Shown here: positions 6,001 through 14,700 of the stretch, piece after piece
Layout of the letters: the number at the start of each line of letters is the position of its first letter
How positions within the stretch are numbered: the stretch's first letter is position 1
From: an uncultured Flavobacteriaceae bacterium
Lineage (GTDB): Bacteria > Bacteroidota > Bacteroidia > Flavobacteriales > Flavobacteriaceae
NCBI GenBank assembly: GCA_905182835.1
Contig: CAJJDI010000014.1
Coordinates: 1 to 64,000 of the forward strand
Direction: 5' to 3'
Length of the DNA stretch: 64,000 nt
The notes under the pieces: model-generated
What the model was told of the DNA's origin: nothing
The model's input: only the letters and a program-made list of their open reading frames with translations
Database searches by the model: none
Translations under genes and position numbers: made by a program

Positions 6001-8928
6001 ATGTTGAAAATTACTAAAACTCTTGTTTGTTTATTGACACTACTTGTGTTTAATAATTCATATTCACAACTTGGTGAATCACAAAAACCTTCATGGTCAG
6101 AAACTCTTGACTATAAATTTGTTCCTAGTATATCGGATCAAATTAAGGATGGTACTTTTATCCCAGCTGATACAGATGCCCATAAAAAACTAGGTAGAGA
6201 AAAAAGATGGCATGGAAATAAAGTTGTTCCAGGTAAAGGGTTACCAAAAGGGAATGATCCATTGCTTTATTTGCAAGAAAATGTTATTACTAAAAGTAAT
6301 AGAGACCCTATATTAACTTTTGAAACTACAGCGAATACAGCTACTCCATCAGATCCAACTGGGGAGATAGGTAGAGATTATTATTTGGCATCTTGGAATT
6401 CATCATTTAGATTTTTTAATTTAGATGGTACTTCAGCTTCACCTGCATCAAGTTTATCTACATTGTTTGGTAATGATGAATCTGGGGACCCTATAGCATT
6501 ATATGATAGTCAAGTAGATAGATATATTATAACTTCTATGGGTGGTAGTGGACTTAATTTTGCAATTTCAGAGACTAATAATCCAATACTAGATGGTTGG
6601 CATGTTTATTCAGCTAGTTCTTTTGGTACAGATGGACAATTTCCAGATTATCCAAAATATTCGATTTGGTCTGATGGATACTATTGTACTACTAACACCT
6701 CTGCCAATAACTTATATGTTCTAGAAAGAGATAAAATTATTAACGGTGATCCAACTGCATCAATCCAAGGCTTTGATGCACCTCAAATGATTACAAGTGG
6801 ATTTGCTTCTGCTCAAGTTTTAGATATCACTAATGACGACCATCCATCTGCAGGAAATGCAACAATGATTTATATGCAGGATGATGCTTGGAATCAAGTC
6901 CCAACGGATCATTTAAAAATTTGGACGATTAATATTGACTGGGATAATTCAAATAACTCATCGATCTCAACTCCTTACACGCTAGACACATCTTCTTTTA
7001 CAAGTGTATTTGACGGCGGGAGTTTTGCTAATCTAACTCAATCTAGTGGACCGGATATTGATGCTATGCAGGCTTGTGTAATGAATCAAGCTCAGTTTAG
7101 AAAATTTCCAACTCACAATTCAGCAGTATTAAATTTTGTTGTAGATGTATTATCGGGGTCCGATGAACTTGCTGCGGTAAGATGGTACGAGCTTAGACAG
7201 TCAGCTGATGGAGAACCATGGGTTATCTATCAAGAAGGGACTTACACAGCCCCTGATGGAAGACACGCATTTGGAGCTAGTATGGCTATGGATATTCAAG
7301 GTAATATAGGAATGGGTTACTCATCAATGAGTTCATCTGAAAATATTTCACTTCGTTATACAGGAAGATACGCTAATGACCCTGTCGGACAAATGACTCT
7401 TGAAGAAGATTTAATTGCACAAAGTAATGCTACTAACCCTAATACCAGATATGCAGATTATGCACACATGAGTGTTGATCCATCAAATGATAAAACATTT
7501 TGGTTTGTTTCTGAATATTTTAATCCAGGAAGAAGAGATTTAGTAGGTACTTTTCAAATTGCAGCAAATTATGCTAATGATATCGGAGTTGTTAGTGTTG
7601 ATTCTCCAGTATCTGGACTTTTATCAGATTCAGAGTCTGTAACAGTTTCTATATTTAATTATGGAGAAGATTCCGTTTCTAATTTTGATGTTTCTTATCA
7701 ATTAGACTCAGGTACTGTTATTACGGAAACATACACGGGAACAGTAACATCAACAGAAACTGTACAACATACTTTTTCTACAGTGGCAGATTTATCTGTT
7801 GTAGGAACTACTTATGGGATTTGCGCATATACAGCTCTTGCAGGGGATGAGGATTCTTCTAACGATAACTTTTGTACTGAGATTCAACATTTAAATCCTA
7901 ACGACTTGGGTATAACAGGAATTTCATCTCCAGTATCTGGAACAAATCTATCAGCAACGGAACTCGTTACTATTGAAATAACTAATTTTGGTGGAGCTGA
8001 ACAATCAAATTTTGAAGTGTCTTATGAAGTTAATGGAGTCACAGTTACAGAAACTGTTGCTGGTCCTTTAGCAGGAAACTCTTCTATAGATTATATTTTT
8101 TCTCAATCACTGGACTTATCTGCCTTTGGATCTTATGAGATAGTTACATCTGTTAATATTGAAAATGATTCGGATGATTCAAACAATACTATTAGTGTAA
8201 CTGTAAATAATGTTAATTGCGCACCAACTGGTGATAATTCATTTGGGGATGGTTTTCAATTATTTCAAGTAGGAGATATAAATAATACTTCTGCTGGAGA
8301 TGGATATTCAGATTTCACTACTTTATCTACAGATTTAGAGCAAGGATCAACTAACGACTTAACTGTTACAACAAGTTACGGAAACCAGTACGTCAGAGTT
8401 TGGGTCGATTTTAATGATGATTTTGTGTTTACTTTAGATGAATTAGTCGTTGACAATTATGTTATTGCTGTTGGAGCAGCTGCTGGTACTTACACAGAAA
8501 CAATGCAATTAGTTGTGCCAGACGATGGGACATTAGGAGAGCACATCATGAGAGCTAAAACTAACTGGAATGCACCAGTTCCCGATGATGCTTGTGAAGA
8601 GACTCAATACGGGGAAACTGAAGATTACATGGTTAATATAGTGGAATCCTTAGGAATTGACGATAGTATTTTAGTAAGCTCAGAATTTAAAATTATTACA
8701 CAAGATAATAACCAATTTAATGTTAGTCTAACGACAATATACAATGAAGATATATCATTTAGTGTTTATAATGTTTCAGGGCAAGTAATAGTCTTTAATA
8801 ATATTTCTAAAAACTCTCAAAAGTACATTTATGACTTAGATATGTCCTATGCTTCTGCAGGGATTTATTTAGTCAAAATGGGGAACTCCTCTATAGGCTA
8901 TAGAATTGGTAAAATTATTGTAAAGTAA
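6001..8928 (+). CDS. Secreted multidomain protein with CARDB-like repeats, GEVED domain and T9SS sorting domain
   Basis: This is a predicted extracellular or surface-attached protein of 975 residues. Residues 1-22 form a signal peptide ending near NNSYSQ. Residues of about 90-525 contain repeated W/Y-rich beta segments and look like a beta-propeller; I see no peptidase motif in them. Two CARDB-like beta-sandwich repeats follow (starting near IGVVSVDSPVSG and LGITGISSPVSG). Then comes a GEVED-type domain (DLEQGSTNDLTVTTSYGNQY to YGETEDYMVNI) and a C-terminal segment ending in SAGIYLVKMGNSSIGYRIGKIIVK-type sequence, which fits a type A T9SS sorting domain. The last three modules closely match those of the next gene, so the pair arose by duplication or module exchange. 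The role of the N-terminal half is unknown. Confidence 0.8.
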   Translation: MLKITKTLVCLLTLLVFNNSYSQLGESQKPSWSETLDYKFVPSISDQIKDGTFIPADTDAHKKLGREKRWHGNKVVPGKGLPKGNDPLLYLQENVITKSNRDPILTFETTANTATPSDPTGEIGRDYYLASWNSSFRFFNLDGTSASPASSLSTLFGNDESGDPIALYDSQVDRYIITSMGGSGLNFAISETNNPILDGWHVYSASSFGTDGQFPDYPKYSIWSDGYYCTTNTSANNLYVLERDKIINGDPTASIQGFDAPQMITSGFASAQVLDITNDDHPSAGNATMIYMQDDAWNQVPTDHLKIWTINIDWDNSNNSSISTPYTLDTSSFTSVFDGGSFANLTQSSGPDIDAMQACVMNQAQFRKFPTHNSAVLNFVVDVLSGSDELAAVRWYELRQSADGEPWVIYQEGTYTAPDGRHAFGASMAMDIQGNIGMGYSSMSSSENISLRYTGRYANDPVGQMTLEEDLIAQSNATNPNTRYADYAHMSVDPSNDKTFWFVSEYFNPGRRDLVGTFQIAANYANDIGVVSVDSPVSGLLSDSESVTVSIFNYGEDSVSNFDVSYQLDSGTVITETYTGTVTSTETVQHTFSTVADLSVVGTTYGICAYTALAGDEDSSNDNFCTEIQHLNPNDLGITGISSPVSGTNLSATELVTIEITNFGGAEQSNFEVSYEVNGVTVTETVAGPLAGNSSIDYIFSQSLDLSAFGSYEIVTSVNIENDSDDSNNTISVTVNNVNCAPTGDNSFGDGFQLFQVGDINNTSAGDGYSDFTTLSTDLEQGSTNDLTVTTSYGNQYVRVWVDFNDDFVFTLDELVVDNYVIAVGAAAGTYTETMQLVVPDDGTLGEHIMRAKTNWNAPVPDDACEETQYGETEDYMVNIVESLGIDDSILVSSEFKIITQDNNQFNVSLTTIYNEDISFSVYNVSGQVIVFNNISKNSQKYIYDLDMSYASAGIYLVKMGNSSIGYRIGKIIVK

Positions 8929-8942
8929 ACTATTGACAATTT

Positions 8943-9039
8943 AATAAGGCCAATAATTTTTCGTGATATTTTCATTATCTTGGATCTCCCAAACAAATCT
9001 TAAGATAATGAAAAATTCAAAAATATTATTGGCCTTATT
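8943..9039. repeat. Long imperfect inverted repeat over the protease start codon
   Basis: The outer arms are a perfect 15-base inverted repeat (8943-8957, AATAAGGCCAATAAT, against 9025-9039). The inner arms are a perfect 13-base inverted repeat (8969-8981, TTTTCATTATCTT, against 9002-9014). A short T/A run pairs between them, with a few mismatches and a bulge, and the loop is 20 bases (8982-9001). The ATG of the downstream secreted protease (9008) lies inside the inner right arm, and codons 6-11 lie in the outer right arm. RNA from this region would fold into a stem hiding the translation start. No transposase or recombinase is adjacent. Confidence 0.8.
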
Positions 9040-11728
9040 TTTACTTTATAGTATATTTAGTTTAGCCCAAGTAACAAATGAAGGAAACCCTAGAAGCTGG
9101 TCTTATTCAGCAGATGACTTAGAACTTGTAGAGTCTAAAACACTACCTATATTTGATCTTAAATCTGTCCAAGAAGAAGATAAAGTAAATGACTTATCTT
9201 TTGATAGTCCATGGAGGTTTGGATACATGCACAGTGTAGATTATGGCTTTGAAGATGGTCAATGGGATATATTAGAAAATGGTGACAGAATTTGGAGAAT
9301 ATTAATTTCTTCCCCTAGCGCATTATCTCTCAATTTCGTTTTTGATAATTTATTTATTCCTAAGGGAGCTTCTTTATATTTATATAATGATGATAAATCA
9401 GATTTATTAGGAGCTTACACTAGTGATCAAAATCAAGAAGGTGGAATTTTAGGCACATGGCTTGTAGAAGGTGATTACGTATGGATTGAATATTATGAAC
9501 CACAAAATGTTATTGGTCAAGGAACTTTACATATAGCAAAAGCTACACATGGTTATAGGAATGCTGATACTTTTAATCAGGCTAAAGGATTAAACGATTC
9601 TGGAGATTGTAATTTAGATGTTGATTGTTCAATTGGAGATGATTGGGAAGAATTAAAAGAACACAATAAAAGATCTGTTGGTATATTACTTTCTGGAGGT
9701 TCTGGATTTTGTACAGGAGCATTAATTAATAATACTCAAAATGATGGTACACCTTATTTTCTAACTGCTGATCATTGTTATAGTAATCCAGCGTCTTGGG
9801 CATTTAGATTTGGATGGATTAGTCCAAACCCTGTCTGTGCTACCACTGAAAATAGTAGTAACGGACCTACGAACATGACTATTAGTGGCGCTACTTTACG
9901 AGCAAGGGATGCAGGATCTGATTTTGCATTAGTTGAAATTAATAGTGATATCCCTGAAGATTGGGATAGAGTTTTTGCTGGATGGGATAAATCAGATAAT
10001 TTTCCTGAATTCCAAGTAGGTATTCATCATCCATCTGGAGATGTTATGAAAGTTTGTAGAGATGACGATCCTGCTACCAAAGAAGTAAATGCTGGAGCTC
10101 AAACATGGGAAATAGTCGGAGGCCTACCTGGTGGATGGGAAATAGGTGTTACTGAGCCTGGCTCGTCAGGATCACCATTATTCGACCAAGAAGGTAGAAT
10201 TATAGGTCAGCTATATGGTGGAGGTGCTGCTTGTGCAGGAACTAATGATAATGATGCTTATGATTATTACGGAAGAGTTGGAGTTTCATGGGAAGGAGCA
10301 GGAACATCTTCTACAAGATTAAGAGATTGGTTAGACCCTCAAGGAACAGGAAATGACACCATGGATCCTTATCCTACATTAACCAGTTTTCCTTATGATT
10401 CAGGTGTATCTAGCATAGATTCACCAATAAATGGAATTCTAACATCCAATGAAGTTATTATAGTTACTATCACAAATTATGGGGAGAATTCAATATCAAA
10501 TTTTGATGTTTCTTACCAAATAGATGGAGGAGCTGTGATAACAGAAACATTTACAGCTACAATATTAACAGGAGAGTCATCTCAATTTTCGTTTACTACA
10601 ACAGCTGATATGGCAACAGTAGGTCAAACCTATCAAATTTATTCTTTCACTGAACTTTCAGCAGATGAAGACTCTGAAAATGATGGAGTTTATTCAGATG
10701 TTACACATCTTAATCCTAATGACTTGGGTATTTCAGAAATAACTAGCCCAACGTCTGGAACAAACCTTTTAGCTAATGAATCTATTACTGCTATAATTAC
10801 TAATTATGGTTCATCATCTCAATCTGACTTTGAAGTTTCATATGAGATTAATGGTGAGACAGTTACTGAAACTGTTCCTGGTCCTTTAGAGGGTAATACT
10901 TCAATGACTTACACTTTTACACAAACTGTAGATTTATCTGCTTTTGGAGTGTATGAGATTGTTGTTTTTGTATATGAAGATAATGATGCTGATACATCAA
11001 ATAATTCTTTAGTGATTGTAGTTAATAATTCTAATTGTTCTCCTACAGCAGATACTTCCTATGGAGATGGGTTTCAACTTTTTGAAGTAGGGGGTATTAG
11101 TAATACTTCTGCTGGAGAAGGTTATGCGGATTTTACTAATTTATCGACTGATTTAGAACAAGGTTCAAGTCATAACTTAACAGTTACAACTGGTTATGGA
11201 AATCAATACATTAGAGTTTGGATAGATTTTAATGATGACTACATTTTCTCCTTAGATGAATTAGTAGTAGATAATTACGTTATTGCATCTGGAGGAGCCG
11301 CCGGAACTTACACTGAAACAATGGACTTAGTTGTTCCTGCTAATGCTACTCTTGGGCAACATATTATGAGAGCTAAATCTAATTGGAATGGACCAGTTCC
11401 AGATGATGCATGCGAGGAAACTACCTATGGTGAAACTGAAGATTATATGGCTAATATAGTTGAGAGTTTATCAATAAATAGCATTCAAATTGAAAACATA
11501 TCAATATATCCGAACCCAGTAAATAACATATTAAATATTAATATAGGATCTAATAGTGATTTAAATTATTCAATATTTAATATTACAGGTCAAACTATTA
11601 TAAAAGGTATATTTGACAACTCAATTAACGGAATTGATTTTTCAACTTTATCTGAAGGAATTTATTTTCTTAAAGTTTTTGACACACAATTAAATAAGCA
11701 GAACACTTATAAGCTGATTAAGAAATAA
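9008..11728 (+). CDS. Secreted lysyl-endopeptidase-like serine protease with GEVED and T9SS sorting domains
   Basis: This is a predicted T9SS-exported trypsin-fold protease of 906 residues. The ATG at 9008 starts a clean signal peptide (MKNSKILLALFLLYSIFSLAQ), so the 15-codon extension to 8963 is rejected. The catalytic triad can be read: His in YFLTADHCYS, Asp in GSDFALVEI and Ser in GSSGSPLFDQ. The cysteines around them (FCTG, DHC) resemble Achromobacter lysyl endopeptidase. After the protease domain (about residues 210-455) come two CARDB-like repeats, a GEVED domain and a type A sorting domain with the ISIYPNPVNN motif. Context suggests extracellular protein degradation. A palindrome covers the start region, suggesting translational control. 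The substrate preference (Lys) is an inference from family resemblance. Confidence 0.85.
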   Translation: MKNSKILLALFLLYSIFSLAQVTNEGNPRSWSYSADDLELVESKTLPIFDLKSVQEEDKVNDLSFDSPWRFGYMHSVDYGFEDGQWDILENGDRIWRILISSPSALSLNFVFDNLFIPKGASLYLYNDDKSDLLGAYTSDQNQEGGILGTWLVEGDYVWIEYYEPQNVIGQGTLHIAKATHGYRNADTFNQAKGLNDSGDCNLDVDCSIGDDWEELKEHNKRSVGILLSGGSGFCTGALINNTQNDGTPYFLTADHCYSNPASWAFRFGWISPNPVCATTENSSNGPTNMTISGATLRARDAGSDFALVEINSDIPEDWDRVFAGWDKSDNFPEFQVGIHHPSGDVMKVCRDDDPATKEVNAGAQTWEIVGGLPGGWEIGVTEPGSSGSPLFDQEGRIIGQLYGGGAACAGTNDNDAYDYYGRVGVSWEGAGTSSTRLRDWLDPQGTGNDTMDPYPTLTSFPYDSGVSSIDSPINGILTSNEVIIVTITNYGENSISNFDVSYQIDGGAVITETFTATILTGESSQFSFTTTADMATVGQTYQIYSFTELSADEDSENDGVYSDVTHLNPNDLGISEITSPTSGTNLLANESITAIITNYGSSSQSDFEVSYEINGETVTETVPGPLEGNTSMTYTFTQTVDLSAFGVYEIVVFVYEDNDADTSNNSLVIVVNNSNCSPTADTSYGDGFQLFEVGGISNTSAGEGYADFTNLSTDLEQGSSHNLTVTTGYGNQYIRVWIDFNDDYIFSLDELVVDNYVIASGGAAGTYTETMDLVVPANATLGQHIMRAKSNWNGPVPDDACEETTYGETEDYMANIVESLSINSIQIENISIYPNPVNNILNINIGSNSDLNYSIFNITGQTIIKGIFDNSINGIDFSTLSEGIYFLKVFDTQLNKQNTYKLIKK

Positions 11729-11780: not shown

Positions 11781-14700
11781 TTAAAAATTAGCTTTTAATT
11801 GAATATTTCCATTATGAATAACTGAATTATTTTCAGTTTTTCTAGCGAAATAATTCAAGTTCAAATCTACATATTTTGTTATTTTCTTTTGAATATTTAA
11901 TGACCATGTTAAATTATTCCCGGGTTGTAGTCCTTCCATCATAATATACCCAATGATTGAGTTGGGGTTACCCGTAAATTTATTCTTATAATAATTCAAC
12001 TCTCCATTGATCGATATCGCATTTTTATTTGAAAAGTTACTGGAGATACCAAATTTATTCTGAGATAGAGTTTCAAAATTGCCAATTATATTCTCCGTAT
12101 TTGAGTATTGATAATAAAGGTCTATTTTGTTTGAATTCTCAATGAAATATGTAAATTTTGGCCCGTATTTTATGTCATTAAAATTATAATTTTTGCTTTC
12201 AAAATTTTCACTCTCACTTTTCCTGTTGTTAATAGAAATTAATGACGAAAAAAGTATATTTTTTAATTTGTGATTTACATTGATCTGATGACTTAATAGT
12301 TCATTCTCGACATAACCAAATGACAGAGTATTTTTTGAGCGATTATTAATAAATGTATATGTAGTGGAGTAGTGTTGCTTTCCTCTATTGAAATATAAAT
12401 TATTTCTTAGGTTCATGGTTAAGGCTAGTAAACTATTTGCAGATGTTTTGAATGGGTTTAGATCAAACTGATTATTTCTTTTTACACTCTTTTTTTGAAT
12501 TAAATACTGGCTTTGATTTTGAAATTTTGATAGTATTTTTTTAAGCTTTAAGCTACTTTTAGACCATTTTTTTAAATTAATATTTAATGACTGACTAAAT
12601 TTATTTTGATAGGTCTTTATGAACTTTTGATTAGGTAATAAAACTCTAATATATATTCCTTCATCTTCAAACTGTGCAATCTCAAACTCTTCTAGCTCTT
12701 GTATATTATTGTTATTAATATCTATCCATCGATAGTTTCCTACCCCTGGGTCAACCTCTATAAAAGTAAATTCTTGTTGTGCTAAATTTCCAGAATTAGA
12801 TTCATATGCGATGTTTAACTTTATTATATCATCAGAAGTTTTTTTGAAATAATTTATTCTAGAATTTAAAAATTTTTCACTGTTTGTTTCATTCGCTCTC
12901 TTTAGAATTCTGTAGTTAGTAAAAACGGAAAGTTTTGTGTTTGAATTATTTATTATACGTGAGTTTATAGAAAAGTTATTAGATGCGTTTACTTTTTGAA
13001 TTCTATTGTTTACTACACTATCATTTACCCTTTGATTAAGCCCTAGTTCTACAAAAACACTTGTTGAGTCCCCTATTCCTGCTGTAAAGCCATAAGATGT
13101 AAACTTATGACTATTAACGATTAATGAATCTGTGTTTTTATTTCTCTTAATATTATTTTCATAATCTAAATTAATGTCAAACCACTTATTCTTATTTTTT
13201 AATCTAACTGTATTATAACTTCTTGAAAACTCAGATTTTATTAACTCAGAATTTGATTTTAGTAAACTATTATTGGAATTTATTTTTATTTTATTGTTAT
13301 TATAATTGAATAATGTATTATGCTTTGTTCCTTTAAAATTATTTACAAATTCTAAGTTCTGATAACTGTAATTCACAAAGCCTATATTTTTTTTTGTGAT
13401 TAATATCTCAGCAGAAGCTTCGTTTTGTGTTTTATTAAATTGATTGTTCACATTTAATAAAGTCGAGTCTAAATTCCAATCTCTCAAGAATTCTGTATTA
13501 TAATAATTTTCTATAGATCTAAAATCCTTATTAATATGCTTAAACTGAAGCCTATTAATAATTTCAATTTTATCAGTGCTTGTAAAAAAATTCTCTAATT
13601 CTATTTTAGCTGCTAATCCATTGTTGTCTTTGTCATCAATTGAAGAAAATTTATTTTTGTCATTATTACTATTTGCTAACTCAAAATTTATTTTTGAATT
13701 TTTAGATATTTCATAATCCCCGCTTACAATAGCAATTTGAATTTCTTCAGGAGCTATTAGATTAATCACTGGTTGATAATCACCTTGTTTAACCCCTGAA
13801 ATAGGTTGTGTGTAGTTATAAATGTTAGAAATAGTATTGGTAGTTGCTAATGAGTAATTTCCTTCATTTTCACCAACGTAACTAAATTTTATAGAGTATA
13901 ACTCATCATTTGGGTTATTAGAAAACTCGTAAAATTCTATGTTATTTTCAATCACTTTCTTGTATAAAATCCTGTTTTCATTGTATTCTGTAGATATTAT
14001 TGATGAAGACTGCATTAAATCTGTATCATCCCCGGCCAAAGTTAATGCTTCTATGTTTTCTGTAGTTAAACTTTGTTGTAACGGCTGACCTTTTAAATCA
14101 CTTTCATTATATACCATTACATTAACATTTAACTTTTCAGTTTTTATTTCTCCACCCGCATACGCCATGAACCTGGAATAATTTCTATCACTAATTTGAT
14201 AATCGACCTTTATTCTCATTTCTGAGCTAATTGGATAAGTTGTATTAAACACAATTTCACCAGCATTATAATCAATTATGTAGTCTTTGTTCTCTCCTCT
14301 TTGTAATAGCATACCGTTAACATATACTTTCTCACTATCTGAAACTACTAATATATAAAGCTCTCCATTACCTCCTTGCATTTTATATGGCCCTTGGTTA
14401 CCATCTTGGGCAGTCATATTGCTACTTTTAAACTGACCTTTGACTATTGCTGCTGATAAATATGCATTTTCTTCATCATTAATTTGTGCAGAAATTAATA
14501 ATCCCTGAATTCTTTTACTAAACATTCCAAAATACGTATTAGAATTTTTTAGATCGATATCACCGGCTCTAATTTTCCATTTGTCACTTTTTAACTCTAT
14601 GAAAATTTGATCGAATTCATCCAATGTCTGTGAATATCCATTGTCTTGAAGTGGTATATTTGCGTCTTGTATAGAGGCTGTTATTTCAACTTTGTCATTT

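Follow-up and report, generated by a model that had tools for sequence, protein, structure and literature searches.

A long quasi-palindrome across the start codon of a secreted flavobacterial protease, most likely the scar of a recent template switch

Why should the start codon of an exported protease lie inside one arm of a long inverted repeat? This question is raised by a locus in the first 64,000 nucleotides of contig CAJJDI010000014.1 (the whole stretch that was analysed, hereafter the window), which stems from an uncultured, marine-type member of the Flavobacteriaceae. The source genome (G000) is a draft of 1.56 Mb in 48 contigs and is 82% complete. An initial annotation, made from the letters of the window, had seen in the structure either a translational switch or the mark left by a template-switch mutation, and had also brought up phase inversion. 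The features around the gene junction to which we refer below are the following:

6001..8928, plus strand: upstream gene, encoding a secreted protein with repeats (CARDB, GEVED and a sorting tail at the C-terminus), from open reading frame and Pfam
8943..8981, plus strand: left arm, inverted copy derived from the protease start (perfect for 15 nt, diverged over ~11 nt, perfect again for 13 nt)
8954..8961, plus strand: TAATTTTT, a weak -7-like box, separated by a spacer of 18 from a TTG at 8933; not significant
8976..8983, plus strand: TATCTTGG, a -7-like box of the Bacteroidetes type (TAnnTTTG) across the border of arm and loop; start predicted at ~8988, in the loop
8982..9001, plus strand: loop, 20 nt
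9002..9039, plus strand: right arm, original copy, containing AAGATA, the start codon (ATG, 9008) and the opening codons of the signal peptide
9008..11728, plus strand: secreted protease of the trypsin type, carrying CARDB and GEVED domains and a sorting tail for type IX secretion, from open reading frame and Pfam
9035..9047, plus strand: T-rich stretch TTATTTTTACTTT at the base of the stem and past it, encoding the hydrophobic core of the signal peptide; weakly resembles the tail of a terminator

The quasi-palindrome spans 97 bases across the protease start (8943-9039), exactly where it had first been placed. Between its arms (8943-8981 versus 9002-9039), 35 of 37 aligned bases are identical, leaving two mismatches and two small indels. 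As described at the outset, two perfect inverted repeats are nested around a 20-base loop, namely an outer one of 15 nt (8943-8957/9025-9039), whose right side encodes part of the signal peptide, and an inner one of 13 nt (8969-8981/9002-9014); the diverged block of 10-11 nt that separates the two holds all of the arm differences. A further extension of the outer arms (8910-8929/9040-9059, 80%) was not counted as part of the palindrome, since it requires a 13-nt bulge and coincides with the conserved last part of the upstream gene. The left copy, read on the minus strand, opens a 25-codon hydrophobic frame (MKISRKIIGLIKLSIVYFTIILPIL), which is the mirrored signal-peptide start continuing into the end of the previous gene. 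The protease and this previous gene share modules, as the initial annotation had noticed: CARDB, GEVED and a T9SS tail are found in both (that of the upstream gene marginally below the Pfam cut-off, with 26.3 bits vs 27), and the two proteins are 56% identical across residues 411-895.

Could such a palindrome have arisen by chance? Its rank in a genome survey, its comparison with simulated genomes, its fold relative to shuffled sequence and the energy of the start region show that it did not. A gapped local inverted-repeat survey, covering 1.35 of the 1.56 Mb and ignoring N-masked stretches, placed it first with a score of 52, ahead of runners-up with 51 (163-nt loop) and 46, and the top scores in eight third-order Markov genomes of equal size ranged from 35 to 43. 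When the RNA from 8930 to 9060 was folded and set against shuffled sequence, as had been suggested for this locus, it reached -37.3 kcal/mol compared to a mean of -14.6 (sd 2.75) for dinucleotide shuffles (z = -8.3), with 0 of 200 shuffles as low. Besides, among the 1076 ATG starts in the genome, folding energy is lowest around that of the protease (-39.4 vs a median of -14.0), and in this genome-wide comparison the ATG at 9008 is unpaired with a probability of ~0.001, which bears out its location within the inner stem. A search at the DNA level for further copies of the arms returned short A/T-rich matches only; two of the arm-like matches (L022, L025) read as internal coding sequence, and a third (L023) extends over the start of a gene for a short secreted protein. 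A general class of hairpins over start codons was discarded: four hairpins passed among the ATG starts of the genome, two of which are probably wrong start calls.

Several other hairpins and inverted repeats were encountered in these genomes. The repeat ranked second in the survey (L078:14316-14343 and 14507-14534) is 28 nt long with one mismatch and a 163-nt loop, and begins at the end of a gene. At another locus (L104:5910-5940 and 6021-6054), the arms of one inverted repeat hold both start codons of divergent genes, with TAACCCCCAATTATTATG-like sequence on both sides and a fold z of -5.0; in the orthologues from G003 and G004, only a CCCCCA-ATTATT-like motif beside one start is retained. 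On contig C7 of the source genome (L044:220-258), the 5' part of the coding sequence for another secreted protein contains a terminator-like hairpin with a T tract. This hairpin also occurs in L148 and L147 (G003, G004), where stem letters differ and the pairing is kept, and the T tract of this type encodes Phe residues of the signal peptide.

Is the palindrome over the protease start shared with relatives? It is absent from the ~40 distinct orthologues examined, the congeneric G001 included: in their start regions the best inverted repeat scores at most 24 (52 here), and fold z-scores, which rest on single-base shuffles in this case, lie between -2.2 and +1.7. G001 (Flavobacteriaceae bacterium ANT-5) is the only congeneric genome with a protease orthologue, of 80% protein identity. 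There, the gap between the two genes measures 168 nt and consists of an ordinary terminator and then an A/T-rich, unstructured leader, with no palindrome. The G001 intergenic region is not alignable with that of the source genome, and homology of the loop with the G001 leader, tempting by eye, yielded a shuffle p of 0.83. The same kind of gene pair is nearly abutting in three other relatives (L032, L033 and L037), with a gap of a few bases. In G002, a terminator directly follows the upstream gene, and G003 has the same gene order as G002. A protease orthologue was not found in these two congeneric drafts, which keep the upstream gene and the gene 3' of the protease adjacent; the comparison suggests that one gene of the tandem pair was lost or gained between congeners. 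A search for further strains of the source species found none. Among the genomes compared, this lineage is thus the only one with the palindrome.

This distribution weighs on the first of the two original proposals. A hairpin selected as a translational or attenuation switch, with temperature, a ligand, a protein or upstream translation as its signal, would fit the extreme fold energy, the full pairing of the ATG and the fact that the stems are intact although the block between them has diverged; besides, hairpins that sequester start codons are a known control principle. However, none of the relatives has the structure, neither an alternative fold nor a ligand pocket is evident, and an Rfam search of the palindrome gave nothing at gathering score, its matches being weak, generic microRNA hairpins. 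As the palindrome occurs in none of the ~40 relatives, there is no covariation to measure, and the idea of a conserved translational switch at this start codon fails the very test that the initial annotation had set for it. We consider selection as a switch unlikely.

How old, then, is the inverted copy? G000 and G001 differ at 54% of fourfold-degenerate sites, whereas the palindrome arms differ by ~5% (2/37, plus two indels), which places the copying event after the split of the two genomes. Judged by this divergence, the copy is far younger than the split, unless repeated switching has homogenised the arms. Its direction can be read from a small difference between the arms: the right arm has ATGAAAAATT, which is common to G001, while the left copy instead reads ATGAAAATAT in reverse, so that the left arm is the derived one. 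An inverted copy adjoining its source is what template switching characteristically leaves behind. The second of the original proposals is the best supported of those put forward, with the left arm missing in every orthologue examined and the arms far too similar to be of old age. We favour, with a probability of roughly 0.6, that a recent template switch copied the protease start (9002-9039) in reverse orientation upstream, and that the copy would probably hide the ATG in read-through mRNA only.

Under a template switch, the nascent strand would probably have folded back where a short repeat, TTATCTT (8975-8981)/AAGATAA (9002-9008), already existed, copied itself for ~30 nt and then returned to its own template, with this innermost pair possibly serving as the seed. 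All arm differences fall within a block of ~11 nt, a clustering that has a probability of ~2% under uniform decay, by our own estimate from a simple range argument. This is mildly unexpected under neutral decay and provides the main hint of a further process, such as two-step switching, homogenisation or selection on the stems.

The same arm differences speak to the possibility of an assembly or amplification artefact, i.e. a fold-back chimera from strand-displacement amplification. The genome being an incomplete draft, such an error is conceivable, and this type of amplification is reported to yield chimeric by-products (PMC9484634). Yet fresh chimeras have identical arms, whereas two mismatches and two indels separate those of the palindrome, and past it the contig continues in the correct orientation with both genes intact; both points render a chimera very unlikely. 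Hardly credible is an element inverted by a recombinase that acts on the repeats. It would agree with a short spacer bounded by inverted repeats, but this spacer (20-67 nt) has no clear outward promoter, a second orientation is not known, and the single tyrosine recombinase of the genome is encoded on a different contig, with no resolvase detected. The early remark that no recombinase is nearby therefore stands, and phase inversion finds no support at a locus with no site-specific invertase in its vicinity.

On the other hand, the palindrome might mainly act on the upstream gene, as its transcription terminator or 3' barrier, with the T-rich signal-peptide codons as a tail. It is the sole strong hairpin 3' of the upstream stop codon, the T-rich TTATTTTTACTTT comes after a GGCC core, in both G001 and G002 the same upstream gene is directly followed by a terminator-like hairpin, and the hairpin at L044 likewise overlaps the start of a secreted-protein gene. 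However, the T tract is interrupted, the loop measures 20 nt and the base of the stem is A/T-rich, so that the compact GC-rich stem, short loop and T tract of an intrinsic terminator are not found together; a terminator scan detected none here, and the gene pairs at L032, L033 and L037 leave no space for one. The terminators of G001 and G002 resemble the palindrome in lying closely 3' of the same gene, but their stems are short, come with A and T tracts and stay clear of the next coding region, whereas the palindrome has a 20-nt loop and includes the start codon. The initial annotation had dismissed a simple terminator for want of a 3' T tract and because the right arm is coding. The first point is correct in that an uninterrupted tract is missing, but too strong as worded, because a T-rich stretch does follow the stem: the outer stem runs into TTTACTTTA/TTATTTTTACTTT, with TTTACTTTA, inside TTATTTTTACTTT, directly abutting it as a T-rich sequence other than a classical uninterrupted tract. 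We regard a role primarily in termination as rather unlikely.

Returning to the template-switch scar, what might it do to expression of the protease? By folding, the probability that the ATG is unpaired is ~0.001 for RNA 5' ends at or before 8970 and 0.3-0.45 from 8974 onward. As the fold hinges on the 5' end of the RNA, transcripts of the upstream gene should be translated poorly at the protease start. The mRNA entering from this gene (6001..8928), a possible supplier of read-through transcripts, would carry both arms and bury the ATG; mRNA starting in the loop would be devoid of the left arm and leave the ATG open. An effect on translation in this lineage would thus be physically expected only for transcripts with the left arm. 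In a related context, structure around the start codon tunes initiation in Flavobacterium johnsoniae (PMC6847099).

A candidate promoter for transcripts starting in the loop is TATCTTGG, the best single -7 box of the region, albeit with a shuffle p of 0.39 (0.23 for the best two-block site). It sits 32 nt upstream of the ATG, where the TAnnTTTG boxes of the genome peak. Across the genome, the Bacteroidetes -7 box emerged from promoter motif modelling; at the protease start, shuffle p values were 0.2-0.4. A start at ~8966 from the rival box TAATTTTT would, in contrast, keep the inner stem and leave the ATG shut. It could further be speculated that one replication error created an instant read-through insulator, with the protease being translated from transcripts of its own promoter but silent on those of its neighbour, and that this arrangement is now kept by selection. 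A new cis-regulatory RNA element would then have originated in one step in a wild bacterium; we deem this extended scenario improbable.

Overall, the palindrome is real, statistically outstanding, recent and lineage-specific, and most likely represents a template-switch scar with a plausible effect on translation. While the kind of mutation is already known, its placement on a start codon is unusual. The locus hence provides a clean candidate for a template switch that landed on a start codon, where one mutation would have given rise to a strong RNA structure whose effect on translation can be predicted. Should expression data agree, the locus would illustrate how a new regulatory hairpin can emerge in a single step, in a phylum with initiation tuned by structure around the start codon; at present, it is a well-documented curiosity of a draft genome.

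With respect to its predicted logic, the locus recalls IS10 and IS50, in which fold-back inhibits transposase translation in read-through transcripts. In these elements as in the palindrome, transcripts from outside would hide the start region via an inverted repeat, while those from an internal promoter would lack one arm; folding returned the corresponding pattern for the protease, with a probability of an open ATG of ~0.001 for RNA with both arms and ~0.42 for RNA starting in the loop. Unlike the insertion sequences, however, the palindrome is without a transposon or mobile ends, its internal promoter is a weak candidate, and its logic is predicted from sequence. With respect to its putative origin, a parallel exists in E. 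coli, where template-switch mutations occur at quasi-palindromes (PMC7202029). There, too, fold-back at an imperfect short inverted repeat and copying of the nascent strand lead to a more perfect palindrome, yet in laboratory reporters, whereas the present case is read from a natural sequence. Template switching has likewise been found to create hairpins in microRNA and rRNA genes (PMC8794818, Proc Natl Acad Sci 2022). These differ from the palindrome in the genes concerned, as the segment copied here holds a bacterial start codon. They share with it an inverted copy of a neighbouring segment in one lineage and a long, near-perfect stem that later gathers small mismatches, just as the protease start is accompanied by a near-perfect reverse-complement copy, 20 nt away, that is absent in ~40 orthologues.
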